Shown: positions 1 to 34,412, counted from the first letter of the stretch. The stretch is DNA of 34,637 nt from a virus (IMGVR_UViG_3300021091_000224:1-34637); one strand, 5' to 3'. The notes: generated by a model not told the origin, from the sequence alone. Translations and numbers: made by a program.

Positions 1-105
1 CACAATCGGGTGGATAGCTTGCCATAGTGCTAGGCACTCATGGAATCCTAGGGTAATGTCACCCTTGCCAGCGTGGAGCAGAATTTCCCTTTGTTGGGGC
101 GTGAT
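1..105. repeat. terminal direct repeat, left copy
   Basis: These 105 bases recur at 34533-34637 with four substitutions, at positions 40, 46, 51 and 55. The repeat lies inside a coding sequence that reads through the join, so the simplest reading is a circular or circularly permuted genome with an assembly overlap. The mismatches suggest that two strain variants were sampled. A true fixed terminal repeat would normally be identical in its two copies. Confidence 0.9.
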
Positions 106-147
106 TTTGCGCCTGAAATCCCTAGTATCTGTACGCGGTCGGGCCAT
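1..147 (-). CDS. small DNA-binding-type regulator, N-terminal part (gene crosses the genome join)
   Basis: Reading starts at ATG 147 and runs off the window at base 1 after 49 codons. It continues in frame in the other copy to TAA at 34415, giving an 88-aa protein. The N-terminus is basic (MARPRTDTRDFRRK). The following segment, QQREILLHAGKGDITLGF, resembles small phage and plasmid regulators of the ribbon-helix-helix type; that assignment is an inference from look and size. No clear ribosome binding site precedes the ATG. The gene sits next to a regulatory region containing CCCTATTAGGG, the core of the 34.2 kb repeat array, so it is a candidate binder of that motif. Three of the four differences between the two terminal copies fall at third codon positions, which supports real coding. 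Confidence 0.7.
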   Translation of the reverse strand, partial: MARPRTDTRDFRRKITPQQREILLHAGKGDITLGFHECLALWQAIHPIV

Positions 148-240
148 GTAAATAGTCGCTGACTTAAGGGTTATCCCTATTAGGGTTTAAGTAGGGTTTT
201 CACCTATTCTACAGCGTGTAGTTAGCTATACAATACATCC
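148..240. promoter_or_regulatory. divergent regulatory region between the 88-aa regulator and the 241-1632 operon
   Basis: The minus strand shows a plausible sigma-70 promoter for the 88-aa gene: TTGTAT at 233-228, a 16-base spacer and TAGAAT at 211-206. Its -35 overlaps the -10-like element of the plus-strand promoter (TACAAT 229-234), so the two promoters probably exclude each other. Between the minus -10 and ATG 147 lies a cluster of AGGG/CCCT motifs at 165-200. It includes CCCTATTAGGG at 175-185, the same core as the array at 34227-34400. This suggests autoregulation through that motif. All of this is prediction from sequence. Confidence 0.5.
215..240 (+). promoter_or_regulatory. promoter P1 with operator-like site O4
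   Basis: The block TAGTTAGCTATACAAT at 219-234 is repeated exactly on the minus strand in front of TerS (33852-33837). Bases 215-232 read CGTGTAG-TTAG-CTATACA, a weaker match to the 18-bp dyad TGTTYAG-N4-CTAYACA seen around cro. The -10-like TACAAT ends at 234 and an ATG follows after exactly six bases, at 241. No good -35 is visible. Confidence 0.5.
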
Positions 241-288
241 ATGCCGCACAGCAACATGCATAGCGGTCTGATCGGAGAGCTAAAATGA
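241..288 (+). CDS. possible leaderless 15-aa leader peptide
   Basis: ATG 241 lies six bases after the TACAAT element, where transcription would be expected to begin, so translation would be leaderless. The frame encodes MPHSNMHSGLIGELK, and its TGA (286-288) overlaps the ATG of the next gene (285) as ATGA. That overlap is the main argument for a coupling role. It could also be chance, because 15 codons carry little statistical weight. Confidence 0.35.
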   Translation: MPHSNMHSGLIGELK

Positions 289-497
289 AAGTCAATACAT
301 CAGAAGTCAAGCGCAGCCCCTGGGCCAAAGAGGTGACCGTTAGCCGCACACAAAATGGCCGTTGGATCATTGACCGGGTTACCAACAAAACAATTTTGCC
401 CGCCAAAACCTTTGCCTGTTGGCAACACGCAGAATGGACGGGCAACGCGTGGGCCAATCAAGCGTTAGAACAGGCCCTATCCCAGGAAAGCACTTAA
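285..497 (+). CDS. hypothetical protein, 70 aa
   Basis: I do not recognise this protein. It is a small basic soluble polypeptide with several Trp residues and no membrane segment, signal peptide or metal motif. GGAGAG at about 274-279 gives a usable ribosome binding site, and the ATG overlaps the stop of a 15-codon leader frame. It is the first substantial gene of the plus-strand cassette ending at the terminator at 1637. By position it is an early accessory gene, perhaps acting on the host; that is inference only. Confidence 0.6.
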   Translation: MKVNTSEVKRSPWAKEVTVSRTQNGRWIIDRVTNKTILPAKTFACWQHAEWTGNAWANQALEQALSQEST

Positions 498-580
498 CAA
501 TCCAGCCTGTAGCATCTCTCCGGGTGCTATGGGCTGCACTGTCGCACGTTCGCCCTTCGGGGACTATTTAGGAGGTTTTC

Positions 581-979
581 ATGTCAGACGTTATCAACTC
601 GCTTCCAGTTCGGATTGTGTATTGCGGGGAAACTAGGCGCGATGATTGGCAATGTGACCAGTGGAGAGTAGAGATTTCCACCAATGCCGGATTCTGGTCT
701 ACAGACTATTTCACTGGTCTAGGACTGCGCCATAAGATCCGGAAAACGCCTGTAAAGCCCTCGGTCCTTGGCATCATGGAAAGCCTGTTTTTAGATGCAG
801 GCGCTGCCGAATTGAATTTTTCTGATTGGTGCGCTGAATACGGCTATTCAGACGATTCAATCTCTGCCCTTAACACCTATAAAAAATGTCTGAATACAGC
901 TACAGCACTTCGCAAACACTTTAGCCCTGATGTGCGAGAAGCCATCCGCGCTGAAATCGAGAAGGCTAATCATGCGTGA
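581..979 (+). CDS. hypothetical phage protein, 132 aa
   Basis: An AGGAGG at 570-575 sits five bases before ATG 581, the best ribosome binding site in this cassette. The protein is soluble and looks like the conserved small hypothetical proteins of proteobacterial phages. Its N-terminal half (VRIVYCGETRRDDWQCDQW onwards) is beta-rich, and the second half is helical with a charged C-terminus. No catalytic motif is recognisable. Its last codons overlap the start of a 31-aa membrane peptide (ATG 972). The 83 bases upstream contain a weak hairpin (TAGCA/TGCTA) and a CCC-TTCG-GGG stem without a T tract. Confidence 0.75.
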   Translation: MSDVINSLPVRIVYCGETRRDDWQCDQWRVEISTNAGFWSTDYFTGLGLRHKIRKTPVKPSVLGIMESLFLDAGAAELNFSDWCAEYGYSDDSISALNTYKKCLNTATALRKHFSPDVREAIRAEIEKANHA

Positions 980-1067
980 GCAATTCCTCGACCTAGCCCT
1001 TGCAATCATCCTGGGGCTTGCACTTGCAACCCTGGCCCTGGCGTATTTTGACGTACTTTGGAGCTGA
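972..1067 (+). CDS. 31-aa single-span membrane peptide
   Basis: ATG 972 overlaps the TGA of the preceding gene (977-979), and the frame runs 31 codons to TGA 1065-1067. Residues 6-24 form one continuous hydrophobic helix rich in Leu and Ala, flanked by MREQF and DVLWS, which is the profile of a single transmembrane segment. The next gene starts four bases after its stop, so it fits the tightly packed operon. A membrane-acting early peptide is plausible. No family is recognised. Confidence 0.55.
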   Translation: MREQFLDLALAIILGLALATLALAYFDVLWS

Positions 1068-1071
1068 AACC

Positions 1072-1359
1072 ATGCAATCATTTTTCGAGCTTACTTATGA
1101 GCAGCGCTTTAAAGTTTACGATGCAATCAAAGCCCTCGGATGCCAAACCTACGACGGCGGTGGCTCTGGCCTGCTTTCGGTTGCTGTTGCAAAGGGAAAA
1201 TTTGGGGCTTTGATGCAAGCCTTAGATTTTCTTGGACTGAAACACCAGGATTTGTACAAATTCCCTCTTGGAACTGATAAGCCACCGTGCGAATTGCGTC
1301 ATGAGTCATACGGTCAACCCGACAGTTGCTGGCTTGTTGCAACCTTTAGGCCATACTAA
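1072..1359 (+). CDS. hypothetical protein, 95 aa
   Basis: ATG 1072 is chosen over a longer upstream frame because it follows the 31-aa peptide's stop by four bases, with GGAGC close upstream. The protein begins MQSFFELTYEQRFKVYDAIK and contains a Gly-rich turn (TYDGGGSG) followed by a helical segment. It has no transmembrane segment or known motif, and I do not recognise the family. It is the middle gene of the early plus-strand cassette, with one base separating its stop from the next ATG. Confidence 0.65.
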   Translation: MQSFFELTYEQRFKVYDAIKALGCQTYDGGGSGLLSVAVAKGKFGALMQALDFLGLKHQDLYKFPLGTDKPPCELRHESYGQPDSCWLVATFRPY

Positions 1360-1360
1360 C

Positions 1361-1597
1361 ATGATGACAGAATATCAGCACCATATCGGACCCGGCCTAA
1401 CCCTGGTCTGCGAGATCGAATACGATCCCGGCGAACCCGCTAATCCAGACACAGAGTCGGGCACTTGTTGCCCTGAAACACCGGCTCGGGCTTTTTTCTG
1501 CTCTGCAACTCTGCTCGGCGTTGACGTAACCGATATCCTGGCCGATCACCTTAAAACCTACATTGAAGAGAGGGCGCTATGCTCTATGCAACCATAG
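1361..1597 (+). CDS. hypothetical protein, 78 aa
   Basis: ATG 1361 (or ATG 1364) follows the previous stop by one base, so the longer open frame beginning at 1268 is not needed. The protein is acidic and contains a Cys pair (GTCCPE) and another Cys nearby, but no clear zinc-finger spacing. The family is not recognised. It is the last gene of reasonable size before the terminator at 1637-1656. Confidence 0.6.
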   Translation: MMTEYQHHIGPGLTLVCEIEYDPGEPANPDTESGTCCPETPARAFFCSATLLGVDVTDILADHLKTYIEERALCSMQP

Positions 1598-1632
1598 CCC
1601 TGGTTCTCAGGGTTATCCTGGGGAAACGCTAA
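1579..1632 (+). CDS. possible 17-aa hydrophobic peptide
   Basis: ATG 1579 lies inside the end of the previous gene and encodes MLYATIALVLRVILGKR, a hydrophobic peptide with a basic C-terminus. Its TAA is five bases before the terminator stem. GAGAGGG about six bases upstream could bind ribosomes. The very short length makes this speculative. Confidence 0.25.
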   Translation: MLYATIALVLRVILGKR

Positions 1633-1636
1633 ATCT

Positions 1637-1660
1637 GGCCCTTCGGGGCCGTTTTTATTT
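1637..1660 (+). terminator. intrinsic terminator of the 241-1632 operon
   Basis: GGCCC (1637-1641), a TTCG tetraloop (1642-1645) and GGGCC (1646-1650) form a perfect stem, followed by GTTTTTATTT. It lies between the plus-strand cassette and the convergent minus-strand operon ending at 1685. On the minus strand no T tract follows, so it is expected to act mainly on plus-strand transcripts. A 12-base palindrome (TATTTGCAAATA, 1656-1667) directly follows. Confidence 0.85.
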
Positions 1661-1684
1661 GCAAATAGCGAATGAGCCAATCCG

Positions 1685-1942
1685 TCATGAGACTAATGCC
1701 CGTATTGTGTCGTTTAAAACCGACATCTCGTCTTTTTTCATTACATTCCAGATTCGGCGCTGGCCGTGAATCCCATTAAATGCGCCCTGGTGACAGTCCT
1801 TGCATAACGGGATGCATAAGTATTGCTGATGCTGCTCGATATGATGTGCGTCCGACGGTCCTGGCTGACCGCAAACCCCACAAGGAAGCTCTTTAACCCT
1901 TGCAAGATGCCTACGCTCGGCAGGGCTGGGCTTGTTGTGCAT
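1685..1942 (-). CDS. HNH-type endonuclease-like protein (DUF968/Ref-like), 85 aa
   Basis: The protein carries CGVC (C21, C24), DAHHIEQ (H33, H34) and CKDCH (C47, C50, H51), followed by GIHGQRRIW. This is the zinc-stabilised HNH layout of small phage recombination nucleases of the DUF968/Ref type. It probably nicks or cleaves DNA during recombination or packaging, which fits its place at the end of the operon with RusA and the replication-like gene. ATG 1942 lies inside the last 32 bases of the upstream gene. The HNH-type fold is reasonably sure; the exact subfamily is less so. Confidence 0.8.
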   Translation of the reverse strand: MHNKPSPAERRHLARVKELPCGVCGQPGPSDAHHIEQHQQYLCIPLCKDCHQGAFNGIHGQRRIWNVMKKDEMSVLNDTIRALVS

Positions 1943-2156
1943 GGTAGCTAATTTTCAGTTTTTCCTGACCGTCTGCCGGGAACAATTCCTCCGCCATCAC
2001 TGCGCGTCCCTCTACATCATAGGAAATGCGCCCGTACATATTGCGGCGAACCCTGCTGACCCGACCGACGAACGGCTCACCCTTGAACGGATAGACCGCC
2101 GTTAACTGACCTGGGTTTAGGTAGCATTTCTTCCAATCTGCTTTTTTGTGATTCAT
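1911..2156 (-). CDS. hypothetical protein, 81 aa
   Basis: ATG 2156 overlaps the stop of the RusA-like gene (ATGA), and the C-terminal 32 bases overlap the HNH gene. The protein is basic (MNHKKADWKKCYLNPGQ), followed by a beta-rich stretch around GRVSRVRRNMYGRISYDVEG that could be a small barrel domain. I do not recognise the family. Its position between RusA and HNH genes suggests a role in DNA metabolism, by context only. Confidence 0.65.
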   Translation of the reverse strand: MNHKKADWKKCYLNPGQLTAVYPFKGEPFVGRVSRVRRNMYGRISYDVEGRAVMAEELFPADGQEKLKISYHAQQAQPCRA

Positions 2157-2572
2157 GGCAATTCCTCTCTGACCATAATATCCACGCCAGGATTGTGGTC
2201 ATAGACCTTGGTTATGTGCAGTATCACGATTTGAGCATCGTCCAGGTAAACCACGCCATTCATCCCGTCCAAAACGCTTTTCCCAAGATTATCGGCATCG
2301 GCTCTTGGCCACTCAAGACCGTCTAAACAAGCCTGTATGCGCTTTTTAGGGTAGCTCTTAGGGATTGGTAGCCTGAAATATAGAAAAGCCGCTAGAGGCG
2401 TTTCTAGCGGTTCTCTAGTCATGGCCTGCTTTGCTGCTTCCCGCACCTGGGTTTCGTAGTCACTGGTTTTCTTGGGCGTGTACGTTCTTACGAAACCGCC
2501 AACCTTTGAGAATTTTGGCCTACCTTTTGGTATTGGGTTTATGTCCAGATGGATCGTGATCGAGAAGGTCAT
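2153..2572 (-). CDS. rusA: RusA family crossover-junction endodeoxyribonuclease
   Basis: RusA enzymes resolve Holliday junctions as homodimers, using clustered aspartates and a lysine. Here NPIPKGRPK (residues 12-20) matches the N-terminal basic strand. D92 and D94 in ADADNLGKS, K98, D102 and D111/D112 in YLDDAQI match the catalytic region of the family. The length (139 aa) is normal. The start ATG overlaps the upstream stop, and the gene lies in the early minus-strand operon. It probably works with the ERF/YqaJ recombination pair on the other strand to process recombination intermediates before packaging. Confidence 0.93.
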   Translation of the reverse strand: MTFSITIHLDINPIPKGRPKFSKVGGFVRTYTPKKTSDYETQVREAAKQAMTREPLETPLAAFLYFRLPIPKSYPKKRIQACLDGLEWPRADADNLGKSVLDGMNGVVYLDDAQIVILHITKVYDHNPGVDIMVREELP

Positions 2573-2841
2573 TTTTCTTTTGCCATCCAGTAAAGCAATT
2601 CTGTAGCGGCCTTTTTTCCTCGCCTCTTTTCAATGTCCCCAATAACGCCTTCCCACCAGCCTCGAGCTTGCATAGACCCCTGCTCCTTCGCTTTCGCTCT
2701 GTAGCGTCTGATCCACTCCCTGGCCTCGCATCTTTTCATATGCTCCAAGATCTCCGGTGAGAAATAGGGCTTTGTCAACGATTGCAGCGGGGTAGTGGAC
2801 TCCATCTCTGACTCGATTGAGGATTTTTTGGGCTTGGTCAT
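2569..2841 (-). CDS. conserved small phage protein with CEAREW motif, 90 aa
   Basis: The C-terminal two thirds (CEAREWIRRYR, then RGWWEGVIGDIEKRRGKKAA) look like a small helical family common next to replication genes in proteobacterial phages. The function is unknown. The stop overlaps the RusA start (ATGA). ATG 2841 gives the longest frame. ATG 2739, preceded by GGAGCAT, would give 56 aa and remove most of the overlap with the other-frame gene at 2848-2630. The N-terminal 34 residues are less convincing than the rest. Confidence 0.65.
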   Translation of the reverse strand: MTKPKKSSIESEMESTTPLQSLTKPYFSPEILEHMKRCEAREWIRRYRAKAKEQGSMQARGWWEGVIGDIEKRRGKKAATELLYWMAKEK

Positions 2842-2848
2842 GGGTCAT
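2630..2848 (-). CDS. overlapping small phage protein with TGDL motif, 72 aa
   Basis: ATG 2848 overlaps the stop of the replication-like gene (ATGA) and has GGAGGGG just upstream, a better start context than the neighbour at 2841. Its first 35 residues (MTHDQAQKILNRVRDG... ALFLTGDL) resemble a small phage family usually encoded just before CEAREW-type proteins. The frame then runs to 2630 entirely inside the other gene. Either the genes genuinely overlap in two frames, or an indel in the assembly has merged two adjacent genes. Confidence 0.45.
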   Translation of the reverse strand: MTHDQAQKILNRVRDGVHYPAAIVDKALFLTGDLGAYEKMRGQGVDQTLQSESEGAGVYASSRLVGRRYWGH

Positions 2849-3198
2849 GATCCCCTCCTGATCTGTTCAAGTCGATCCCGAATGTGTTCAGGCATTGCAA
2901 CCACTCCCGCCATCCGCTCGGCGTACTGCTCTGCCATCGTGACCTTTTTGGGGGCTTCTGGGATCTCCGCACCATCCCAGCGCTGCTGGTTCAAGTAAAC
3001 GAGCGGCGCAGGAATGTATGCCCCATTGCTGGTTAGCCACTGGTCGGTGGTTTTCATCCACTCGACATGCTTCAGAATCTGGTCAGCACAATGTTCGTAC
3101 AGACCTTTTTTCCACTTAGCTAGACAAGCTGACTTTGCTCCCTTCCTGGGAGACTTGGGCCATGCTGCCCAGAATCTGTCAAACCCTGACTCGAACAT
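2845..3198 (-). CDS. phage replication-protein-like (C-terminal O/DnaT-type domain)
   Basis: The motif FDRFWAAWPKSPRKGAKSA followed by a conserved Trp-Lys pair is typical of the C-terminal part of phage replisome organisers, which recruit the host helicase. At 117 aa the protein lacks the usual N-terminal winged-helix DNA-binding domain, so origin recognition may be separate. ATG 3198 is preferred because GGAG lies six bases upstream; ATGs at 3204, 3210 and 3225 are in frame. Its place downstream of a cro-like gene matches the lambda cro-O arrangement. The replication role is inferred from the family and position. Confidence 0.65.
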   Translation of the reverse strand: MFESGFDRFWAAWPKSPRKGAKSACLAKWKKGLYEHCADQILKHVEWMKTTDQWLTSNGAYIPAPLVYLNQQRWDGAEIPEAPKKVTMAEQYAERMAGVVAMPEHIRDRLEQIRRGS

Positions 3199-3526
3199 TG
3201 TCATCTCCATCAGTAGGTGCAGCATATTTTTCGTAAAAGTATTGGTCGTAGTTTTTCTCTTTCAATTTATCTTCAAAATACTCGTAAAGAACCACAAAGT
3301 GAGCGCCCTCAATGTACGGGTCTTTTCCTCCCCAACGCCATGCTTTCACAATCTCATCAGAGCTTAAGCTAACCCATTTTTTATCAGGTCTAGTCACTCT
3401 TTCAAGTAAAGCACCTTCAACTAGATCCATCTCTTCTATAAGATCGACCGACAAAAGAGATTGCTCTCTAATTTTGTGAAAAAACTTTAGCACCTCATAG
3501 ATACATTGCGTGTCATCCATCATCAT
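3179..3526 (-). CDS. hypothetical protein, 115 aa
   Basis: AGGAG lies directly upstream of three consecutive in-frame ATGs (MMMDDTQCIYE). The protein is acidic, helical in its first 50 residues and rich in aromatic residues later (AHFVVLYEYFEDKLKEKNY). No motif is recognised. The sequence is visibly more AT-rich than the flanking replication and recombination genes, which suggests separate acquisition. It is the first protein gene after the structured RNA at 3931-3862, in the position of lambda N/cII-type genes, but shows no similarity to them. Confidence 0.65.
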   Translation of the reverse strand: MMMDDTQCIYEVLKFFHKIREQSLLSVDLIEEMDLVEGALLERVTRPDKKWVSLSSDEIVKAWRWGGKDPYIEGAHFVVLYEYFEDKLKEKNYDQYFYEKYAAPTDGDDNVRVRV

Positions 3527-3861
3527 CTACTCCTGCTCCTCCAGAAAGAACAGCGGCAGGAGGGAGGTTCTCTTTTCGGTCTGTTCATGACTCCAGACCT
3601 AGCCGTGTCCACAAAATCACTTAATTTCACCCAAAGACCCCCCTACCCCAATGAAGGGATAAAGAGGGAAGGTGTTTCACCCCTGCTATGCAGGATCGTC
3701 ATGCTACGGATTCTCACCGTATGCCCCAGGCTTGACGATTCGACCAGCCCAACGGATTGTTCGGGAACTGCCCCCTAGCTTACGCATACCGTCTAACCCT
3801 TTTCTTCCACGCCCCCAGGCTGAGGTCTTACTGTCGTGTGGAGTACGGTTGCTGAGGAAAC
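3527..3861 (-). other. non-coding leader with several potential hairpins
   Basis: No convincing gene is present in these 335 bases, only a 27-codon minus-strand frame near 3784-3704. On the minus strand several stems can form: AATCGTCA pairing with TGACGAT around a TACGG/CCGTA hairpin (about 3741-3692), CCTGC-ATA-GCAGG (about 3693-3680), and GGTG/CACC (about 3681-3670). It lies between the strong terminator at 3862 and the gene starting at 3526. It may be a structured leader, an antitermination site, or a second RNA. No promoter is identified with confidence. Confidence 0.4.
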
Positions 3862-3931
3862 AAAAAAGCCGGTTACTGCTGCCCTCGGTAGGAACCCTTT
3901 TTAACCAAGGGCGAGAGCATGAGTAACCGGC
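3862..3931 (-). ncRNA. structured small RNA / intrinsic terminator, C4-antisense-like candidate
   Basis: On the minus strand a closing stem GCCGGTTACT (3931-3922) pairs perfectly with AGTAACCGGC (3877-3868) and is followed by six Ts (3867-3862). Inside it GCCCTTGGT (3912-3904) pairs with ACCGAGGGC (3889-3881) through one G-U wobble. An alternative inner hairpin, CCCTT/AAGGG, is also possible. A stem followed by a T tract makes this a strong terminator downstream of cro, like lambda tR1. The long closing stem with an inner hairpin is reminiscent of phage C4 antisense RNAs, but I cannot confirm that family from memory. Confidence 0.6.
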
Positions 3932-3988
3932 CTTCACTTGTCGCTTCCTACGGCAACAGTTGGCATTCTATGGATCTCTTTGGACTTG

Positions 3989-4147
3989 TCAAGTCCCCGC
4001 AAACCACTGGGGCTTTAAGACCATCAACTGATACAGGCGACCCTTCGGGATCTTATCCCACTGCGATACAGCACCCCTGGAGATGCCCAGCATCTTTGCC
4101 AAATTGCTCTGGCTGCCTGCCCTCTTGATCGCCTCTTCTTTGGTCAT
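3989..4147 (-). CDS. Cro-like repressor, 52 aa
   Basis: This short frame encodes a helix-turn-helix at residues 13-31 (QSNLAKMLGISRGAVSQW), followed by DKIPKGRLYQL. That is the Cro/YdaS-type signature in which a Cro-like protein binds operators as a dimer and represses early promoters. The length of 52 aa is at the small end for the family. It is divergent from the sigma-like gene at 4234, and the gap between them contains two copies of an 18-bp dyad, the expected operator arrangement. TACAAT (4159-4154) lies exactly six bases before the ATG and there is no ribosome binding site, so the mRNA is probably leaderless. No CI partner or integrase is visible. Confidence 0.8.
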   Translation of the reverse strand: MTKEEAIKRAGSQSNLAKMLGISRGAVSQWDKIPKGRLYQLMVLKPQWFAGT

Positions 4148-4153
4148 GTGGGC

Positions 4154-4184
4154 ATTGTAATACACCTGTTCAGTAATCTACACA
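4154..4184 (-). promoter_or_regulatory. early promoter for the cro-like operon with operator O1
   Basis: TACAAT at 4159-4154 is followed by six bases and then ATG 4147. O1 (4167-4184, plus-strand reading TGTTCAG-TAAT-CTACACA) covers the region where the -35 and spacer should be. Binding there would repress the operon, presumably by the Cro-like protein itself. The -35 hexamer is poor, as at the other phage promoters in this genome. Confidence 0.55.
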
Positions 4185-4207
4185 TTAGGGAAAGCACTAA
4201 TGCATCT

Positions 4208-4233
4208 TGTTTAGCATCCTATACACTATTGGC
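4208..4233 (+). promoter_or_regulatory. promoter P3 with operator O2
   Basis: O2 at 4208-4225 reads TGTTTAG-CATC-CTATACA, an 18-bp imperfect dyad whose half-sites match at six of seven positions. Its right half overlaps the -10-like TACACT (4222-4227). ATG 4234 follows after six bases, with no ribosome binding site. The element TTAGGGAAAG lies about 40 bases upstream (4185-4194), and the same ten bases occur at a similar distance before P4. Confidence 0.6.
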
Positions 4234-4698
4234 ATGGCAAAGACAGGAAAAGCATCCCCGCTCTACGGCAAACTGATGACCGCAGAGCTTCCAAGCGCAG
4301 TCAAAAAACTATGGTATTCCCGCGACGAGGAACTGCCAGAGTTGCCCAGGCATGGCTGGTCATTCGATCTGGTCACGGACATGGAATCAGTGGAGAACAG
4401 AGATCTGTTGTTCAAGATCCTGGAGGACTGCCCATTGACAGACCGCGAGATGCTGGCGATCAAACTGATCGAGCATGAAGGCTACACACTTGATGAAGCG
4501 GCCCAGGAACTTGATTGCGGCAAAGAACGCGCCCGTCAGATCCATATGAAAGCCCTCAGAAGACTTCGCACTCATCAAGTAAAGATCACAGGCCAGAAGT
4601 TGTGGGAACTGGAGTGCATTGTCCAGACCTGGAGAACCTGGAAGTGGTCAAGAGTTTCGCCGTGGCTTAGGGAAAGTACCTATTCCAATGGTGTTTAG
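4234..4698 (+). CDS. regulator with sigma-70 region-4-like helix-turn-helix, 154 aa
   Basis: Residues about 65-113 (CPLTDREMLAIKLIEHEGYT, then LDEAAQELDCGKERARQIH and MKALRRLR) closely match the HTH of sigma factor region 4, which normally reads the -35 element. There is no region 2, so it cannot act as a complete sigma factor; it is more likely an activator, repressor or sigma-appropriating protein. ATG 4234 is six bases after TACACT without a ribosome binding site, so leaderless translation is expected. The TAG stop lies inside operator O3, which controls the erf operon. It occupies the divergent position opposite cro where lambdoid phages carry cI. Confidence 0.7.
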   Translation: MAKTGKASPLYGKLMTAELPSAVKKLWYSRDEELPELPRHGWSFDLVTDMESVENRDLLFKILEDCPLTDREMLAIKLIEHEGYTLDEAAQELDCGKERARQIHMKALRRLRTHQVKITGQKLWELECIVQTWRTWKWSRVSPWLRESTYSNGV

Positions 4699-4717
4699 AA
4701 CGCTATACACTTTCCCC
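4692..4717 (+). promoter_or_regulatory. promoter P4 with operator O3, upstream of erf
   Basis: O3 at 4692-4709 reads TGTTTAG-AACG-CTATACA. It has both half-sites identical to O2 and a different 4-base spacer, as expected for a protein-binding dyad. TACACT (4706-4711) is followed by TTCCCC and then ATG 4718. The upstream ten-base block TTAGGGAAAG (4667-4676) is shared with P3. The site overlaps the 3' end of the sigma-like gene, giving the recombination genes their own repressible promoter. Confidence 0.6.
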
Positions 4718-4719
4718 AT

Positions 4720-4745
4720 GCCTCCTAGTTCGGAGGGCTTTTCAG
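4720..4745 (+). promoter_or_regulatory. weak hairpin in the erf leader
   Basis: CCTCC (4721-4725) can pair with GGAGG (4732-4736) across a six-base loop, followed by GCTTTTC. It could act as a weak attenuator or influence translation of erf, whose own AGGAG begins at 4744. The stem is short and the T tract poor, so termination is doubtful. Confidence 0.25.
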
Positions 4746-4753
4746 GAGTAAAG

Positions 4754-5317
4754 ATGGAAAACGCAAAGATTGCTGCGGCTCTAGTCAAGGCACAAAAAGC
4801 CTTTGGCCCTGCGCTAAAGACCAGCACCAACCCACACTTTCGGAGCCGCTATGCAGACCTAGCAGCTTGCGTAGAGGCTGTGATGGACGGACTTACAGCT
4901 AACGGCATCTTTTTTACGCAAAAAGTAGCCCCTTCGGAATCGGGCGTCCTAGTAGAAACCGTGTTCATCCACGAATCAGGTGAGACTTTATCATGTGGGC
5001 AGATCCATGTGCCAGCATCAAAACACGATGCACAGGGGTTTGGATCTGCTCTTACCTATGCTAGGCGCTATTCCCTGATGGCAGCTTGCGGAATCGCCCC
5101 AGAGGACGACGATGGCAATGCAGCCTCTAAGAAGAGCAGCGCAGATGACCAGCAGTTTGAGCAAGCCTACCTTGACAAGCTCAGGGAATCGGCCATGAGC
5201 GGCCTGGACGCCTTGGCTGCGGCGTTCAAGGAGATCCCAAACAGCCCTGCCAAGTCTCGGGTCTGGGCAAAGCACCAGGAAAGCCTCAAACAAGCCGCCC
5301 AGCAGGTGAAAAAGTGA
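4754..5317 (+). CDS. erf: ERF family single-strand annealing protein
   Basis: ERF proteins coat single-stranded DNA and anneal complementary strands in phage recombination. Segments such as NPHFRSRYADLAACVEAV, LTANGIFFTQKV and GFGSALTYARRYSLMAA (followed by CGIAPEDDDGN) are the family's conserved core, here within residues 1-120. A variable C-terminus follows. ATG 4754 has AGGAG five bases upstream. An in-frame ATG at 4718, six bases after TACACT, would add 12 residues to a leaderless product. It overlaps the downstream exonuclease by four bases. Pairing with YqaJ makes a complete Red-like recombination module, probably used for replication-linked recombination and circularisation. Confidence 0.93.
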   Translation: MENAKIAAALVKAQKAFGPALKTSTNPHFRSRYADLAACVEAVMDGLTANGIFFTQKVAPSESGVLVETVFIHESGETLSCGQIHVPASKHDAQGFGSALTYARRYSLMAACGIAPEDDDGNAASKKSSADDQQFEQAYLDKLRESAMSGLDALAAAFKEIPNSPAKSRVWAKHQESLKQAAQQVKK

Positions 5318-5931
5318 CTGAGCAGCGGACAGACGAGTGGTTCCAGCAGCGCCTGGGCAAGGTCACGGCTAGTAGCCTATACAAGGTTCTGTCCAAGACC
5401 AAGACAGGCTACGGGGCTGACCGGGGAAATTACATGACCCAGCTTGTCCTGGAGCGAATTACGGGCCAGAAAGCCGAGTCCTACACCAATGCCTCGATGC
5501 AATTGGGCATTGACCAGGAGCCGCTTGCCAGGGCCGCCTACGAGGCTTCCAGGGGCGTTTTTGTAGAGGAAGTGGGGTTTATCCCTCACCCGACCATAGA
5601 AATGGCTGGAGCGTCCCCTGACGGCCTTGTGGAGGACGGGATGGTCGAGATCAAGTGCCCAGATTCCAAGACCGCTCTGGAGGCTTGGCTGTCCAAGAAC
5701 CCTGTCGAGAGCAAGTATTTTGCCCAGATGCAGTGGCAGATGGCCTGTGCCAAAAGACCGTGGTGCGACTATGTGATCTATGACCCACGGATGCCTGTCA
5801 AGGCTCAGTTGCTTGTCGTTAGGGTAAATCGGGATGACAGGTGGTTAGAAGAGGCTGAAACTGAGGTCAGGAAGTTCCTGGCTGAAGTAGATGAGAAAGT
5901 GCAATCGTTGAAATCAATCATTGGAGAATGA
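5314..5931 (+). CDS. YqaJ-type viral recombinase exonuclease
   Basis: This is the lambda-Exo/YqaJ fold, a 5'-3' exonuclease that produces single-stranded tails for the annealing partner. Visible motifs are DEWFQQRLGKVTAS (7-20), GIDQE with E69, SPDG with D103, VEIKCP with E112 and K114, and YFAQMQWQM with Q138/Q140. This order is the PD-(D/E)XK arrangement of the family. The length (205 aa) is typical. GTG 5314 overlaps the erf stop (GTGA), giving translational coupling. A T-to-A mistake about function is unlikely given the intact catalytic set. Confidence 0.93.
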   Translation: MTEQRTDEWFQQRLGKVTASSLYKVLSKTKTGYGADRGNYMTQLVLERITGQKAESYTNASMQLGIDQEPLARAAYEASRGVFVEEVGFIPHPTIEMAGASPDGLVEDGMVEIKCPDSKTALEAWLSKNPVESKYFAQMQWQMACAKRPWCDYVIYDPRMPVKAQLLVVRVNRDDRWLEEAETEVRKFLAEVDEKVQSLKSIIGE

Positions 5932-5932
5932 A

Positions 5933-6199
5933 ATGAGTAAAGTTTTGAAAGAAGTTAGCACAATTGTTGGTGAATATCGCAACGCAGCGGGAGAGACTAA
6001 AAAGCGTTATTTAAGAATTGGTTCAATAATTGAAACTAAAAGTGGCCCAATGCTCAAAATTGATGCAGCGCCAATGGTTGAAGGGGGTTGGGACGGATGG
6101 GCTTATCTCAACACGCCCAGAGTGACCGGAGAAGAAAAGCCCGCAAAGGCAGCATCAAAAAACTCGGGCTTCGATGATTTAGAAGACACCCCCTTCTGA
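5933..6199 (+). CDS. single-stranded-DNA-binding-like protein with SSB-type tail, 88 aa
   Basis: The body (residues 5-62) is a compact beta-rich domain (VSTIVGEYRNAAGETKKRYL onwards) resembling small phage proteins found with recombinases. The C-terminus ends GFDDLEDTPF, an acidic tip like the bacterial SSB tail (DDDIPF) that recruits DNA-processing partners. ATG 5933 is chosen because GGAG lies six bases upstream and it follows the exonuclease stop. A ssDNA-binding role in the ERF/YqaJ operon is an inference from the tail and the context; no OB-fold is provable by eye. Confidence 0.7.
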   Translation: MSKVLKEVSTIVGEYRNAAGETKKRYLRIGSIIETKSGPMLKIDAAPMVEGGWDGWAYLNTPRVTGEEKPAKAASKNSGFDDLEDTPF

Positions 6200-6201
6200 C
6201 C

Positions 6202-6411
6202 ATGAATGCAGCCAACATTGAACGCAGCGACCGTTTAGCACGGGTTGCCGATCTGCTGGCCCAGAGTGGGGAACTCTCTACTCTGGAGATCATCAAACAA
6301 GCCAATGTCTGCGCTGTCAATTCAATCGTTTCTGAGTTGCGCCAGAACGGCTATGACATTACCTGTCAACGCAGGGGAGAGAAATGGTTCTACAAGCTGG
6401 AGAAAGCATGA
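6202..6411 (+). CDS. small winged-helix/HTH DNA-binding protein, 69 aa
   Basis: Residues about 10-57 (RLARVADLLAQSGELSTLEI, then IKQANVCAVNSIVSELRQNG) followed by the beta hairpin YDITCQRRGEKWFYKL form a classic helix-turn-helix plus wing. It probably binds DNA as a regulator or accessory replication factor. The ATG follows the previous TGA by two bases, and its stop overlaps the next gene (ATGA), so it is part of the recombination operon. The target is unknown. The GGC-rich region downstream is one candidate, by proximity only. Confidence 0.75.
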   Translation: MNAANIERSDRLARVADLLAQSGELSTLEIIKQANVCAVNSIVSELRQNGYDITCQRRGEKWFYKLEKA

Positions 6412-6599
6412 CTGATACACGCAAAGAAGTTTTAATTAACCTGGACAACATGAAAAGCATCTTTATTTCAACGTCCTTTGACAACAAGCTAATGGTTTCC
6501 GTCAATATTCAGGGAGGATACGCCTATGTACACCTGACTGATGAGAAGGTCGATCAACTCATAGAAGCCCTCGTAGCCTTCAAAAAGGAACTTGCATAG
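6408..6599 (+). CDS. hypothetical protein, 63 aa
   Basis: ATG 6408 overlaps the previous stop. The protein is beta-rich in its first 45 residues (KSIFISTSFDNKLMVSVNIQ) and ends in an amphipathic helix (VDQLIEALVAFKKELA). No motif is recognised. It is the last gene of the erf operon before the terminator at 6696-6719. Confidence 0.65.
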   Translation: MTDTRKEVLINLDNMKSIFISTSFDNKLMVSVNIQGGYAYVHLTDEKVDQLIEALVAFKKELA

Positions 6600-6695
6600 A
6601 GGCAGCGCGCAGCAGCGCCCGGAGCGGCTAGGAAAGGCTCGGCATAGCGGCGCTCGGAACGGCAGGGATTGGCTAGGCTAGGTTATCAGCAGATC

Positions 6696-6719
6696 AGGCA
6701 TTTACCAAAGTGCCTTTTC
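6696..6719 (+). terminator. intrinsic terminator of the erf operon
   Basis: AGGCATTT (6696-6703) pairs with AAAGTGCCT read back from 6715, giving an eight-base-pair stem with one T-G wobble and an ACCA loop, followed by TTTTCT. It lies about 100 bases after the last gene of the erf operon. It is also the hairpin of the first repeat module. Confidence 0.65.
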
Positions 6720-6834
6720 TGGTGGTAATACCAATCGGCAGTGCATAGTTTGGCGGGGCATGGCTGGGCGGGGCGGTGCATGGCCGGGATAGGCTGGGCA
6801 AGGCTTGGCTTGGCAACGCAAGGATGTTTATAGC

Positions 6835-6875
6835 GATATGTATCTCAAATGATACATATCGGTGGAAACACCAAT
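6835..6875. repeat. perfect inverted repeat plus GGTGG hairpin
   Basis: GATATGTATC (6835-6844) and GATACATATC (6851-6860) form a perfect ten-base-pair dyad around a six-base loop. Immediately after, GGTG-GAAA-CACC (6861-6872) can form a second stem with a GAAA tetraloop, then AAT. No T tract follows, so a terminator is unlikely. A protein-binding dyad or origin hairpin fits better. Confidence 0.6.
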
Positions 6876-6954
6876 GAGCGCGGCTGGGCGTGGCTGGGCA
6901 GGGATAAGCTGGGCGCGGCAATGACTAGCAAGGCAAACTTAACGAAAGAAACTC

Positions 6955-7569
6955 ATGACAACTGCAACAACTTCAGACACACGACTCAACATTGTTCAGC
7001 GACGAATTAAACTCAAAGGGGTCACTCCCATGATGTTTGACCGATACGCTGGCGACAACCAAACGAAACTGGAATGGCATCAAAAAATCTACCTGCGACC
7101 AGGGACACAAAACCTGTGCCTCCCGACTCTAAACTTGGTTTCCTTCTTCACCGCACACAACACGAACTCAGCACCCAAGAGGCTGCGCGACAAGAGGATC
7201 TACAAGTCAATCTGCAACGCAATCCTGAGCTTCGTGAATATAACCGCTACGGACGGTAACGCAGAGAACATCCTGATACACCGCGATGGCAAACCAATCG
7301 AGGTCGGCACATTCACCGACCGCATAGACGAAACCAGCGGCATCTACCTCCACAGGGCTGTAGCACGCCTTGACAAGGGCATTCCAAACCCCAAAGAACG
7401 CCCCGTTCTGCCCTGCCCTTGGGAGCTTGAGTTCGATCTGACGATCTACCCAAACAAAGAGATCAAGGAACAGGAAATCAAGAACCTACTTAAAGAGGGT
7501 GGAATGGCAATCGGACTGGGGACTTTCCGTGGCGTCTTTGGTAAGTTTGAGGTCGTTTCTTGGGAATAA
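6955..7569 (+). CDS. conserved phage protein of unknown function, 204 aa
   Basis: The protein looks like a widespread proteobacterial phage family near recombination genes. Recognisable blocks are KGVTPMMFDRYAGDN (21-35), NTNSAPKRLRDKRIYK, the PKERPVLPCPWEL region, and a C-terminal Gly-rich segment GGMAIGLGTFRGVFGKFEV. The last block vaguely recalls the glycine-rich loop of RAMP/Cas7-type RNA-binding folds, but the evidence is too weak to name a function. ATG 6955 directly follows the GGC-rich region; the ribosome binding site is poor. It starts a new gene group after the terminator at 6719. Confidence 0.75.
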   Translation: MTTATTSDTRLNIVQRRIKLKGVTPMMFDRYAGDNQTKLEWHQKIYLRPGTQNLCLPTLNLVSFFTAHNTNSAPKRLRDKRIYKSICNAILSFVNITATDGNAENILIHRDGKPIEVGTFTDRIDETSGIYLHRAVARLDKGIPNPKERPVLPCPWELEFDLTIYPNKEIKEQEIKNLLKEGGMAIGLGTFRGVFGKFEVVSWE

Positions 7570-7571
7570 GC

Positions 7572-7772
7572 ATGATGGATAGCGACATCATTGAAATTTG
7601 GCGAAAGCACCAAGAAGTTCACGCCTTTGCTAATGAACTGCTGAACATTGAGCGCCGTATCTGTGCCGATCTTGCTGACAAGCATGAGAGAAAGCACGAA
7701 CACAGGCAGATTGATGGGAAGTGGGAGTGGATTAGCCCTGCGGCATTTGCTATCAGGGAGAGGATCAAATGA
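7572..7772 (+). CDS. hypothetical protein, 66 aa
   Basis: ATG 7572 (or 7575) follows the previous stop by two bases with GGGAA upstream. The protein is charged and helical, with a His-rich stretch (KHERKHEHRQIDGKWEW), and shows no classical zinc motif. Its stop overlaps the truncated copy of the 8910 gene (ATGA at 7769). The function is unknown. Confidence 0.6.
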   Translation: MMDSDIIEIWRKHQEVHAFANELLNIERRICADLADKHERKHEHRQIDGKWEWISPAAFAIRERIK

Positions 7773-7794
7773 CCGATAGAGACTTGATGCAGCA
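7767..7794 (+). repeat. 28-bp direct repeat, left copy
   Basis: These 28 bases are identical to 8908-8935. The pair brackets the 77-aa gene and the glycosyltransferase. Each copy contains the first nine codons of the same gene, intact only on the right. Confidence 0.9.
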
Positions 7795-7804
7795 GGAGGC
7801 GTGA
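7769..7804 (+). pseudogene. truncated 5' remnant of the 8910-9140 gene
   Basis: The frame [11 protein letters not shown] stops after 11 codons and repeats exactly the first nine codons of the gene at 8910. ATG 7769 still overlaps the upstream stop (ATGA), as expected for the ancestral gene order. The remnant supplies AGGAGG (7794-7799) as the ribosome binding site for the inserted GTG-start gene at 7806. It therefore marks the left edge of an insertion of about 1.1 kb. Confidence 0.75.
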
Positions 7805-7805
7805 A

Positions 7806-8039
7806 GTGAGCGATTTAGAACTTTTTGACACTGACGATCCGTTATGGCATCAGATGCCAGAGTTCAATCAACAAGATCATGGCCCAATGTTTACGGTCAA
7901 AATCCACTTTAGAAATGAAGCGGACATGAACGAGTTTTTTGACTTAATCAATCAGCGCCGCACAAAAAGAAAAAGTTACTGGCATCCTGCCGCTGAGGTT
8001 CGCAGGGTGGCTGACAAACTATGGGAGGACACGAAGTGA
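7806..8039 (+). CDS. conserved small protein paired with the glycosyltransferase, 77 aa
   Basis: GTG 7806 has a perfect AGGAGG six bases upstream, inside the truncated remnant. The core MFTVKIHFRNEADMNEFFDL followed by RTKRKSYWHPA looks like a small phage family that I associate with DNA-modification and glycosyltransferase cassettes; that association is from memory. The fold looks like one beta-alpha-beta unit. The stop overlaps the glycosyltransferase GTG start, so the two are coupled. The function is unknown. Confidence 0.7.
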   Translation: MSDLELFDTDDPLWHQMPEFNQQDHGPMFTVKIHFRNEADMNEFFDLINQRRTKRKSYWHPAAEVRRVADKLWEDTK

Positions 8040-8920
8040 TTCCGTCATATCCCGTCTATATTGTGTCAAAAGGTAGATGGGAATATCATTTGCGCCTTAC
8101 GGCGCGAGCACTTGATAACATGAAAATTCCGTATTTTATTGTTGTCGAGGACTCGCAGTTTGCTCAATACGCTGCCGTAGTTGGGGCTGATCGCTGTTTG
8201 GTGCTTCCTGAAAAATATAAGATTGAGTATGACCTTTTTGGAAAGTTTGAAGATGGCAAGACAGGACCTGGACCGGCTCGAAATTTTGCGTGGCAACACT
8301 CCATTGATAACGGCTACAAGTGGCATTGGGTCATGGATGACAATATCGGCTCTTTTAGAAGGTTACATAACAACCTTCAAATCCGAGTTTCTGGGGGCGC
8401 GATATTTTGCGCTATGGAGGACTGGTGTGGCCGATACGAAAATGTCGTAATTGGTGGTCCGCAGTATGATTTTTTCTTGCCAAGCAAATACGCTTTCCCT
8501 CCATATGTTTTGAACACTAGGGTGTACTCTTGTCTGTTGATAAGAAATGACATTGGACTCAGGTGGCGCGGACGGTATAACGAAGACACCGACTTGTGCT
8601 TGAGAGCGTTAAAGTCAGGTTTGGTGACTGTGCAGTTTAACGCTTTCATTCAAGAGAAAAAAGAAACTCAGGGTATGCGCGGAGGAAACACAGACGAGTT
8701 TTATTTACAAGAAGGAACTAAAGCAAAAAGCGAAATGCTCGCCGCCATGCACCCAGATTGTGCAAAAGTGATTCGGAAATATGGGCGATGGCATCACCAT
8801 GTAAATTACAAGGTGTTCAAACAGCGTCCTGCGCTACGAGATGGCATCGTCATCGAAGCGGGGTATAACAACTATGGTATGGAACTTTCTTCAAAAAACA
8901 ACTGGCAAAATGACCGATAG
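8036..8920 (+). CDS. GT-A glycosyltransferase of the TET/JBP-associated (TAGT-like) type
   Basis: The residue blocks PVYIVSKGRWE (6-16), TGPGPARNFAW (76-86), WHWVMDDNIGSF with MDDN at 100-103 as the nucleotide-sugar/metal motif, and YNEDTDLCLR (181-190) match the phage glycosyltransferase family. Members of that family are proposed to add sugars to oxidised or hydroxymethylated pyrimidines in DNA. The length (294 aa) is normal. GTG 8036 has GGGAGG seven bases upstream and overlaps the previous stop. No TET/JBP dioxygenase or hydroxymethylase is visible in this genome, so the acceptor is unclear. The gene is more AT-rich than its neighbours and is bracketed by a direct repeat, pointing to lateral insertion. 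Confidence 0.8.
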   Translation: MIPSYPVYIVSKGRWEYHLRLTARALDNMKIPYFIVVEDSQFAQYAAVVGADRCLVLPEKYKIEYDLFGKFEDGKTGPGPARNFAWQHSIDNGYKWHWVMDDNIGSFRRLHNNLQIRVSGGAIFCAMEDWCGRYENVVIGGPQYDFFLPSKYAFPPYVLNTRVYSCLLIRNDIGLRWRGRYNEDTDLCLRALKSGLVTVQFNAFIQEKKETQGMRGGNTDEFYLQEGTKAKSEMLAAMHPDCAKVIRKYGRWHHHVNYKVFKQRPALRDGIVIEAGYNNYGMELSSKNNWQNDR

Positions 8921-8935
8921 AGACTTGATGCAGCA
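8908..8935 (+). repeat. 28-bp direct repeat, right copy
   Basis: Identical to 7767-7794. It lies at the right edge of the glycosyltransferase cassette and overlaps both the end of that gene and the start of the next. This placement suggests the cassette arose by duplication or homology-driven insertion at the start of the 8910 gene. Confidence 0.9.
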
Positions 8936-9140
8936 AGCGCTAGAGGCGCTTGAGTTCGTAAGAGACACTCCGGCCAGCAAGGACGAGATACAGCGTGCCT
9001 GGATCGTGATTAACCTTTTGCAGAAACGGCTGGCGCGGCAAGAGCAGGAGTCGTATCAAACGGTAGATTCAATCAATGCCAAAACAACGATGCTATTTGA
9101 CGATTGGCAAGGCGGTTTCCCGTTTAAGGAGAGCAAATGA
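8910..9140 (+). CDS. hypothetical protein, 76 aa
   Basis: ATG 8910 lies within the last 11 bases of the glycosyltransferase gene. The protein starts [20 protein letters not shown], a helical opening frequent in small phage proteins, and continues as a charged helix before a short C-terminus ([15 protein letters not shown]). A truncated copy of its first codons lies at 7769. Its stop overlaps the next gene (ATGA). The function is unknown. Confidence 0.7.
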
Positions 9141-9322
9141 AGGCTAAAATTCTTGACCCCAGCTTTAAATATGTAAACGCCGCATCGACTAACATTCAAG
9201 AAACATGGAAAAAATTTGGCTGGAGGCCGTTAAGTGAAATGCCCAAAATGCGGAGCGTGGAGTCTAGTGAGAGACACACGACAGAAGAACGGAACAGTCA
9301 GAAGATTCAGAGAGTGCGGTAA
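9137..9322 (+). CDS. conserved small phage protein, 61 aa
   Basis: The segment [20 protein letters not shown] followed by KKFGWRP looks like a recurrent small phage protein family of unknown function. ATG 9137 overlaps the previous stop. The conserved part ends near residue 33. The remaining residues overlap, in another frame, the zinc-ribbon gene starting at GTG 9234, and the stop overlaps ATG 9322 as TAATG. Confidence 0.65.
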
Positions 9323-9488
9323 TGAACATCGTTTTACCACTGAAGAGCATGAAGTTCCCAAAAACAAACGAGGCGGGTCCAGACTTCGACGCCTGGAATC
9401 ACGAGAACTTAGCCCAGTTCGCCAAACAAGCGAACGAACGAATGAAGGCTCAGGAGGAGCAGATAGAGGCTCTGAAGATGGACGTTAG
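9234..9488 (+). CDS. small zinc-ribbon protein, 84 aa
   Basis: The N-terminus [17 protein letters not shown]...[14 protein letters not shown] carries C3, C6, C27 and H31, the half-ribbon seen in many phage NrdR-like zinc-ribbon proteins. GTG 9234 has GGAGG about ten bases upstream. Only the first 40 residues look conserved. The rest overlaps the gene at 9322 in another frame and is low-complexity and basic, so the functional protein may be just the ribbon. It may bind nucleic acid; no target is known. Confidence 0.6.
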
Positions 9489-9531
9489 GTACGCTATGGA
9501 TGCCTATAGAAAGGCCATTACGGGGCGCTAA
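9322..9531 (+). CDS. helical small phage protein, 69 aa
   Basis: The core [20 protein letters not shown] continues as [20 protein letters not shown], a single amphipathic, probably coiled-coil helix typical of a small phage family of unknown function. ATG 9322 overlaps the upstream stop (TAATG). An internal ATG at 9349 ([13 protein letters not shown]) is a possible alternative start. Its 3' end overlaps the convergent phosphoesterase gene by 14 bases, so the plus-strand operon and the late operon meet without an intergenic terminator. Confidence 0.65.
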   Translation: MNIVLPLKSMKFPKTNEAGPDFDAWNHENLAQFAKQANERMKAQEEQIEALKMDVRYAMDAYRKAITGR

Positions 9532-10492
9532 CGTCAATAATCTGACCCCTAAACTCGATCTCGTTATCACTCCACTGATGGGCCAGCTCAGGCCACAAAA
9601 GCCGCCCATCCTTAAAGGTGAGCACAGCAAAGCCAGATCTCCAGTTCACCGGATTGTCCTCAAGATAATCCGTGAATTGGGGTCCATTGGTGTCTGCTAG
9701 AGTTCCTGTATCTACACCGTATCTATTGCCTGTGTAATCGGCAAATGGCGTGACCTTCAGGCTGTGCAGATGGCCTGTGACAATGCTGATACCGGCATTA
9801 ACAGTATTGTTGTGCGCGGCATGGATGCCGCCCTTGTAGCGGTGCTTTACAACTACCTTTTCGGTAGGCCAGCACGACCAGCACGGTATCCAGGCTGGAA
9901 AGTGGTCTGACAGCTTAAAGCCGCCAACGTGCATATATTCCGGCACTGTATTGGCAAGCCTGTTCTCAAACCGCGCATCATGGTTGCCAAGCGACCATAC
10001 GAGCTTTGCCTTGCCAGCAGCGTCCTCGATCTCTCCCAAAGACATCTCACAAGCCTTTAGCTCATCAATGACAGATGGCTTAGAGTCCCAGCCAATCCTG
10101 GGGTGTCTGCTGATTGCGGCTCCATCAAAAGCGTCACCATTATTGATGATCGCTTTCGGCCTTAGCTCTTTGATAGCCCACAGCAGACCCTTAAAAGCTG
10201 TGCTACGGATTCCAGGCCAGAAATGAGCATCAGAGAAGACTAAGACGACCCCATTCTCTATGCCTAGATGATGTCGAGCAGCAGAGTTATAGGACGGTAT
10301 GTGGTGCTCAACGCCACGCTCTACTTTTGATGCAACAGAAGGAAGACGCTCGCCAGTTTTGCCCTCGATCTTCCTCCGACGAGACATTACCTGTCGTTCG
10401 CTGATGCCAAGCACCTTAGACATCTTGACCGGAGACTGATATTGCTTCCAGAGTTCAATAAACTCCGACTCAGAGATCGCCACCCTCGACAT
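9518..10492 (-). CDS. metallophosphoesterase with N-terminal HTH, 324 aa
   Basis: All calcineurin-type metal motifs are present: SDAH (87-90), NNGDAFDG (117-124), SLGNHDARF (167-175) and GHLHS (240-244). Residues about 13-42 (LWKQYQSPVKMSKVLGISER onwards) form a helix-turn-helix, an unusual addition suggesting a DNA- or RNA-directed phosphodiesterase or phosphatase. The substrate is unknown; phage DNA ends, RNA 2',3'-cyclic ends or host signals are possibilities. It is the last gene of the late minus-strand operon and overlaps the zincin-like gene by 23 bases. Confidence 0.85.
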   Translation of the reverse strand: MSRVAISESEFIELWKQYQSPVKMSKVLGISERQVMSRRRKIEGKTGERLPSVASKVERGVEHHIPSYNSAARHHLGIENGVVLVFSDAHFWPGIRSTAFKGLLWAIKELRPKAIINNGDAFDGAAISRHPRIGWDSKPSVIDELKACEMSLGEIEDAAGKAKLVWSLGNHDARFENRLANTVPEYMHVGGFKLSDHFPAWIPCWSCWPTEKVVVKHRYKGGIHAAHNNTVNAGISIVTGHLHSLKVTPFADYTGNRYGVDTGTLADTNGPQFTDYLEDNPVNWRSGFAVLTFKDGRLLWPELAHQWSDNEIEFRGQIIDVSAP

Positions 10493-33829: not shown

Positions 33830-33852
33830 AGCAGGCATTGTATAGCTAACTA
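33830..33852 (-). promoter_or_regulatory. late promoter P2 in front of TerS
   Basis: TAGTTAGCTATACAAT (33852-33837) is identical over 16 bases to the element of promoter P1 at 219-234. TACAAT is followed by seven bases and then ATG 33829. The left operator half seen at P1 is not conserved here, so this promoter may share the polymerase-binding element but not the repressor control. It probably starts the 24-kb late operon. Confidence 0.55.
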
Positions 33853-34400: not shown

Positions 34401-34412
34401 GGATGCGTGGGG

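Follow-up and report, generated by a model that had tools for sequence, protein, structure and literature searches.

Promoter architecture of the window

The window, that is, the whole stretch of DNA analysed here, is the record of an uncultured virus (34,637 bases) and carries a 105-base direct repeat at its ends (96% identity). Its protein-coding genes are organised in five transcription units, with boundaries read from the map of open reading frames (ORFs), which are headed at 241 (+), 4147 (-), 4234 (+) and 4718 (+) and, in the case of a long late unit, at 33829 (-). Exactly at the heads of all five units lies one arrangement, a -10 hexamer followed by six bases, or by seven at 33829, and an ATG, and each example is located where a preliminary description of the window had placed it. 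The five promoter elements are as follows:

229..234 (+): -10 TACAAT (in CTATACAAT), promoter of the operon of the gene at 285; counterparts in relatives
4154..4159 (-): -10 TACAAT, 6 nt before the ATG of the cro-like gene
4222..4227 (+): -10 TACACT, 6 nt before the ATG of the sigma-like gene
4706..4711 (+): -10 TACACT, promoter of the ERF operon, 6 nt before the ATG at 4718
33837..33842 (-): -10 TACAAT, 7 nt before the ATG of the late operon

The pattern TACA[AC]T-N6-7-ATG occurs five times in the window, each time at the head of a unit, as compared with 0.92 ± 1.01 occurrences (maximum 4) in dinucleotide shuffles (n = 100). The same spacing is found in relatives, for which 249 loci (1.52 Mb) fetched by protein similarity, without reference to promoters, were surveyed. 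Here an ATG lies 5-7 nt downstream of 49 of the 55 distinct CTATACA[AC]T elements, and exactly six nt downstream of 30 of them. The hexamer TATAAT gives the same peak in these loci (17/60 at six), and permuted control hexamers are mostly flat, without a comparable peak. In a census of 12,575 ATG-started ORFs of at least 44 aa from the relatives, -10 hexamers stand at a gap of six bases in 69 cases, seven in 18 and five in 7, with 0-9 cases at each of the other gaps up to 40. The relatives are non-independent samples, yet the genes that begin directly at this ATG (class A, below) comprise 12 protein clusters unrelated at any detectable similarity (21 clusters at 70% identity). The -10-to-ATG geometry is real, selected and far above chance. 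Comparison of this distance across related phages had been proposed in the preliminary description as a means of refuting the leaderless reading, and the start codons are in fact kept at that distance.

An internal control is provided by the window's own predicted promoter of a small RNA (TTGACA-16-TAGAAT, 3992-3965, minus strand), which has no ATG at the corresponding place, so that the AUG would not simply reflect the preference of the polymerase for a particular +1 base.

Class A: genes predicted to be leaderless

At three of the five heads, the ATG of the geometry is the predicted start codon of the gene itself (class A):

3989..4147 (-): P22-Cro-like repressor gene, predicted leaderless; Pfam PF14549, 49.4 bits against a cut-off of 30.2; homologues have the -10 at 6-7 nt
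4234..4698 (+): sigma-70 region 4-like gene, predicted leaderless; Pfam PF04545, 42.1 bits against a cut-off of 24.1; gap kept in L002-L010
33515..33829 (-): leading gene of the late operon ('TerS'), predicted leaderless; close relatives have the -10 5-7 nt before the ATG; N-terminus conserved from M1

The lack of a ribosome binding site at 4147, 4234 and 33829, to which attention had already been drawn, is confirmed by the absence of a Shine-Dalgarno (SD) sequence at these genes, and no SD core is present at -16 to -5 in any of 74 distinct class A starts. In essentially all relatives in which the orthologue is promoter-proximal, the -10 is found at 5-7 nt from the ATG, with a spacer of variable sequence. 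Homologues of the cro-like gene keep the gap of 6-7 nt down to about 50% identity, while the -10, the spacer and the protein all diverge. In the distant L061 and L063, the late gene has a TAGAAT at a gap of 7 or 6 bases from the same ATG (accompanied in L063 by a TTGACC -35 some 17 bp upstream), and conservation in the alignment of the late-gene protein begins at the initiator Met. Conservation of the -10-to-ATG distance in the absence of sequence conservation supports the leaderless reading, and class A mRNAs are very probably leaderless, with the refinement that some of their starts could lie about 1 base off the A, given that base -1 is a G in 25 of 82 cases.

L290 and its kin provide what amounts to a natural experiment, in which a 44-codon gene is located between the same promoter and cro. 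The ATG of this gene takes the six-base position, and the L290 cro overlaps this preceding small gene as ATGA. Outside the group, the sigma-like gene (L011/L012) and the late gene (L066 and beyond) are not leaderless at this position. The absence of the geometry where the gene is not promoter-proximal, as for the sigma-like gene of the distant phages L011/L012, indicates that it is a property of the mRNA head and not of a gene family.

The preliminary description had attributed the leaderless design to the genes that it calls cro-like, sigma-like and TerS. This design is strongly supported for all three, whose distance to the -10 is kept where the sequence is not; the name TerS finds no support in Pfam or PHROGs. 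What the sequence supports for the gene at 33829 is a place at the head of the late operon, with TerL two genes further on. The gene at 4234 has little that is recognisable besides its sigma-70 region 4 domain.

Class B: an upstream AUG and a hairpin leader

The mRNAs headed at 241 and 4718 had also been proposed to begin at the start codon of their genes, and for these two the proposal fails. Leaderless genes at 241 and 4718 are rejected on account of SD-led starts downstream and of an upstream ORF that is not conserved, and the gene starts proposed at these positions are corrected to 285 and 4754, respectively. The features of the two leaders (class B) and of the genes that follow them are:

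241..243 (+): predicted 5'-terminal upstream AUG, class B, opening a 15-codon ORF and not the gene start; AUG before the hairpin kept in relatives
244..267 (+): leader hairpin with a CCGC...GCGG core, followed by UCU; 48 nt fold to -9.2 kcal/mol, and the stem covaries across the family
285..497 (+): first SD-led gene after the class B leader (SD ggagag), 70 aa, no assigned function; one relative found
4718..4720 (+): predicted 5'-terminal upstream AUG, class B, in frame with ERF here; several relatives have it in another frame or ended by a stop
4721..4736 (+): hairpin of the leader, CCUCC/GGAGG, with GCU instead of UCU after it, from the fold; covarying versions in L288 and L289
4754..5317 (+): gene for an ERF single-strand annealing protein (SD aggag); Pfam PF04404, PHROG 2324

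The class B layout consists of the AUG, a CC...GG hairpin, UCU, a spacer and an SD that leads to the true start codon, in a leader of 30-50 nt, and it is present in well over 100 IMG/VR phage contigs; L118 and L138 have three copies each. An SD-led ORF is found 30-50 nt from the first AUG in 63 of 64 class B leaders of relatives. The base directly before the ATG is C in 86 of 87 leaders, and UCU follows the stem in 56 of 57. The first 40 nt have a mean minimum free energy (MFE) of -8.9, as compared with -6.5 for shuffles. Among 85 distinct sequences, position 3 of the stem forms a pair in 83 (50.6 ± 3.3 when shuffled), by means of five types of pair (C-G, G-C, A-U, U-A and U-G), a pattern which indicates that the class B stem is an RNA stem.

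The initial class B scan contained ATGCC and GGTCT, a bias from which three follow-up scans are free. A structural scan of the protein-fetched loci with the triplet left free returned ATG in 57 leaders and six exceptions, all of which retain the A, namely AAT (L235, L262), AAG (L284, L354), ATC (L248) and ATT (L216). Two scans of IMG/VR, whose pattern described the hairpin alone and was free of ATG and promoter, yielded at least 147 distinct cases, the leader being commoner than counted. Among the matches listed, ATG immediately precedes the hairpin in 101 of 103 for the first scan and in 44 of 44 for the second (145 of 147 in total), and the other triplets in this list are ATT and ACG. A TANNNT -10 is located at a gap of 5-8, mostly six, in 134 of the 147 matches listed, and most of the listed exceptions have GATAAT or AACAAT at the same place. 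With this promoter placement, class B transcripts would in all likelihood start at the upstream AUG or within a few bases of it.

The ORF opened by the upstream AUG is mostly 2-20 codons long and encodes a variable peptide. As a leader peptide it is rejected: its commonest form is Met-Pro-stop (2 codons, 31/63), its length runs from 2 to 25 or more codons, and it occurs in all three frames (28/18/17). The unpaired AUG is nevertheless near-invariant before the stem; this invariance, together with the lack of conservation of the reading frame, points to a ribosome-binding signal and not to a coding start. A role of the hairpin and U-tract as a terminator or attenuator is disfavoured, some stems having three pairs and the U-tract often being broken (GGUCUAAUC, GGUCUAUUC).

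No Rfam covariance model matched the window leaders at the gathering threshold, nor those of L118, L103 and L138 at E<=1, and a limited literature search found no earlier description of the class B leader. Searches for cultured relatives returned none for the late gene and none for the leader, one environmental record for the sigma-like gene and a few distant ones for the cro-like gene. A search of host genomes for the leader gave 7 pattern matches, with the promoter in place in L370 only, a phage-like contig within a Comamonadaceae bin (MAG). As the single host-genome match with a promoter is a phage-like contig, the class B leader looks phage-borne. The host is possibly a member of the Comamonadaceae, to which L370 is the sole, and weak, pointer, and we infer a freshwater origin of the phage from this lake contig, not from the sample label of the window.

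Proposed mode of initiation and alternative readings

Taken as a whole, the arrangement suggests a sigma-70-type promoter for each unit, with a -10 that ends six (5-8) bases before the ATG, and a transcript that would very probably be AUG-first. In class A, the 5' AUG would itself begin the gene, and the leaderless mRNA would be translated by a 70S (or IF2-assisted) route of initiation. In class B, the upstream AUG would encode no useful peptide and would most likely be a landing or standby site for ribosomes, which would then initiate at the SD-led codon 30-50 nt downstream, while the hairpin would shorten the leader in space and protect the 5' end. In this phage and its relatives, an AUG appears to stand exactly at the 5' end of each of the five predicted mRNAs, of which three would be leaderless and two have a conserved hairpin leader.

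We infer transcription starts, leaderless initiation and ribosome loading from sequence, and the joint statement of AUG-first mRNAs, a leaderless class A and a ribosome-loading AUG in class B is moderately probable. For the ribosome-loading role of the class B AUG, taken by itself, we see about even chances. More tentative, and in our judgement rather doubtful, is the proposal that class B is an undescribed, widespread phage RNA element in which the 5' AUG-hairpin captures 70S ribosomes and passes them to the SD-led start. RNA structure close to a start codon is inhibitory to leaderless initiation (PMC9031893), and the hairpin right behind the class B AUG is for this reason a difficulty for the loading role, which leaves as a serious rival the view that the class B motif as a whole stabilises the mRNA or binds a protein.

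The first of these rivals sees in the class B leader mainly an mRNA-stabilising 5' stem-loop that would block RppH and RNase E, the AUG being merely the start preferred by the polymerase. Consistent with this are the covariation of the stem and the position of the stable hairpin, which starts from base four of the transcript and leaves just three bases unpaired ahead of it (and has the MFE values given above), as well as the literature listed in PMC3997798, according to which 5' stem-loops stabilise mRNAs. We nevertheless regard it as unlikely: the U and the G are as invariant as the A (in the 145 of 147 matches listed), and a start-site preference needs no UG; some stems have just three base pairs (CCGGAAACGG, CCCUAACGGG); and for the near-invariant UCU after the stem there is no stability reason.

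Similarly improbable is a protein recognition site in which AUG, stem and UCU would be read as a unit, as in a put/nut site or a translational operator. Here the unpaired flanks and the closing CC-GG are near-invariant, the inner stem varies by compensation and the leader is repeated within a genome (L118, L138) in the manner of regulatory sites. Furthermore, it is not the AUG alone that is conserved, as the base before the ATG and the UCU are conserved too, so that a sequence-specific binder retains some likelihood. A phage translational regulator, an anti-termination factor or a ribosomal protein might be imagined in this role, each with little probability. However, no candidate protein was identified, and the AUG, always at the predicted 5' end and with a short ORF directly behind it, has a simpler explanation in translation.

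That the genes are not leaderless, with starts farther upstream and a -10 match that arises simply from the compactness of the intergenic regions, is very improbable, for although -35 matches are weak at the five promoters of the window and a generic promoter scan (1-9700) left four promoters there unlisted, with no excess over shuffles, the gap of 6 ± 1 is maintained across highly diverged sequences, the SD is absent before class A starts (0/74) and a TTGACA-like -35 lies at 16-18 bp in many relatives, mostly in class B.

Relation to known systems and significance

The mRNA of lambda cI transcribed from PRM is a known leaderless mRNA of a phage repressor. The cI and cro mRNAs of phage PY54 begin at the AUG, as determined by RACE (PMC4488713), and the leaderless transcripts of the betaproteobacterium B. 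cenocepacia are enriched for regulators (PMC4603805). Class A resembles lambda cI and the PY54 genes in its -10 directly before the start codon, the lack of an SD and the presence of a Cro/CI-type regulator. It differs from lambda and PY54 in that it also includes a sigma-region-4-like gene and the first late gene, so that a single genome has it at several operon heads, and in its occurrence in uncultured phages.

The ompA and papA leaders of E. coli are 5'-terminal stem-loops that stabilise mRNA. Class B resembles them in having a hairpin within a few bases of its predicted 5' end, but is distinguished by its conserved AUG and UCU flanks and by its fixed link to one promoter geometry. Its AUG finds a parallel in E. 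coli ptrB, rcnR and pcnB, among others, which likewise have an AUG at the 5' end, a short leader (26 nt in ptrB), an SD-led gene and a variable upstream ORF (PMC4965119). The 5'-terminal upstream AUGs of E. coli bind 70S ribosomes, and a change of the ptrB upstream AUG to AUC lowered expression by 93%; a standby role was proposed for it (PMC4965119). Compared with these cases, which are individual genes without a reported common sequence or structure (PMC4965119), class B is a single element, marked by its covarying hairpin, that recurs within genomes and in many different phages.

For this group of phages, AUG-first mRNAs, with two of five start codons corrected and a structured upstream-AUG leader that has no Rfam entry, constitute a strong prediction, which extends to transcription starts and corrected start codons across a large group of uncultured phages and which takes the leaderless design beyond a repressor alone to several operon heads in one genome. 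The AUG-hairpin-SD arrangement also offers a compact natural element for direct tests of the role of 5'-terminal upstream AUGs that was raised by reporter studies in E. coli, and, if its loading role holds, the class B leader would be a small portable expression leader. If the proposed capture of 70S ribosomes by the class B leader is true, this leader would, together with the leaderless genes, make all mRNAs of the phage AUG-first and have them served by a 70S, AUG-at-end route of initiation unlike that of most host mRNAs.

Palindromic boxes and promoters

The motif TAGGG-N4/5-(C/A)CCTA forms palindromic boxes that lie approximately 25-40 bases upstream of the -10 elements at 229 and 4706, which belong to the promoters of the 285 and ERF operons, respectively, and are also found within the array at 34229-34420.

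Palindromic boxes, TAGGG-N4/5-(C/A)CCTA, in the window
192-206, palindromic box
4668-4682, palindromic box
34229-34272, palindromic boxes

Half boxes of the CCCTA type are found upstream of the window's remaining promoters. The palindromic boxes may serve a phage regulator as its operator or as an iteron.

Predicted RNA elements downstream of the cro-like gene

Directly 3' of the P22-Cro-like repressor gene, on the minus strand, there is a predicted promoter, TTGACA-16-TAGAAT, for a predicted small RNA of ca. 95 nt (3861-3992 with the promoter), whose long hairpin (-48 kcal/mol for a 103-nt stretch) ends in a T-tract. Sequences resembling it occur in L293, L301 and L370, the last a phage-like contig from a Comamonadaceae bin. 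Also downstream of the cro-like gene is a sub-threshold match to the Rfam int-alpA RNA (3538-3609, minus strand; 29.6 bits versus a cut-off of 35.8), a position shared by all three relatives checked for it (L288, L332 and L360). These relatives, together with L103 and L138, likewise give sub-threshold matches (27.9-34.6 bits), and the sequence is probably a diverged member of int-alpA.

Late gene start, repeats and a glucosyltransferase-like gene

At 33838 (minus strand), an ATG in frame with the first gene of the late operon overlaps the -10 element of that gene (TACAATGCCTGCTATG), nine bases ahead of its conserved start; in the relatives examined, an ATG at this element is missing or mostly out of frame.

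The two ends of the record form a direct repeat of 105 bases (1-105 and 34533-34637) with 96% rather than 100% identity. This would reflect either strain variation in a genome that is circular or terminally redundant, or else assembly overlap. An exact 28-base direct repeat, AAATGACCGATAGAGACTTGATGCAGCA, is present in the early operon (7767-7794 and 8908-8935). Finally, the gene at 8021-8920 (plus strand) matches PHROG 842 (beta-glucosyl-HMC-alpha-glucosyltransferase), and this match is suggestive of DNA modification or other glycosyl transfer.
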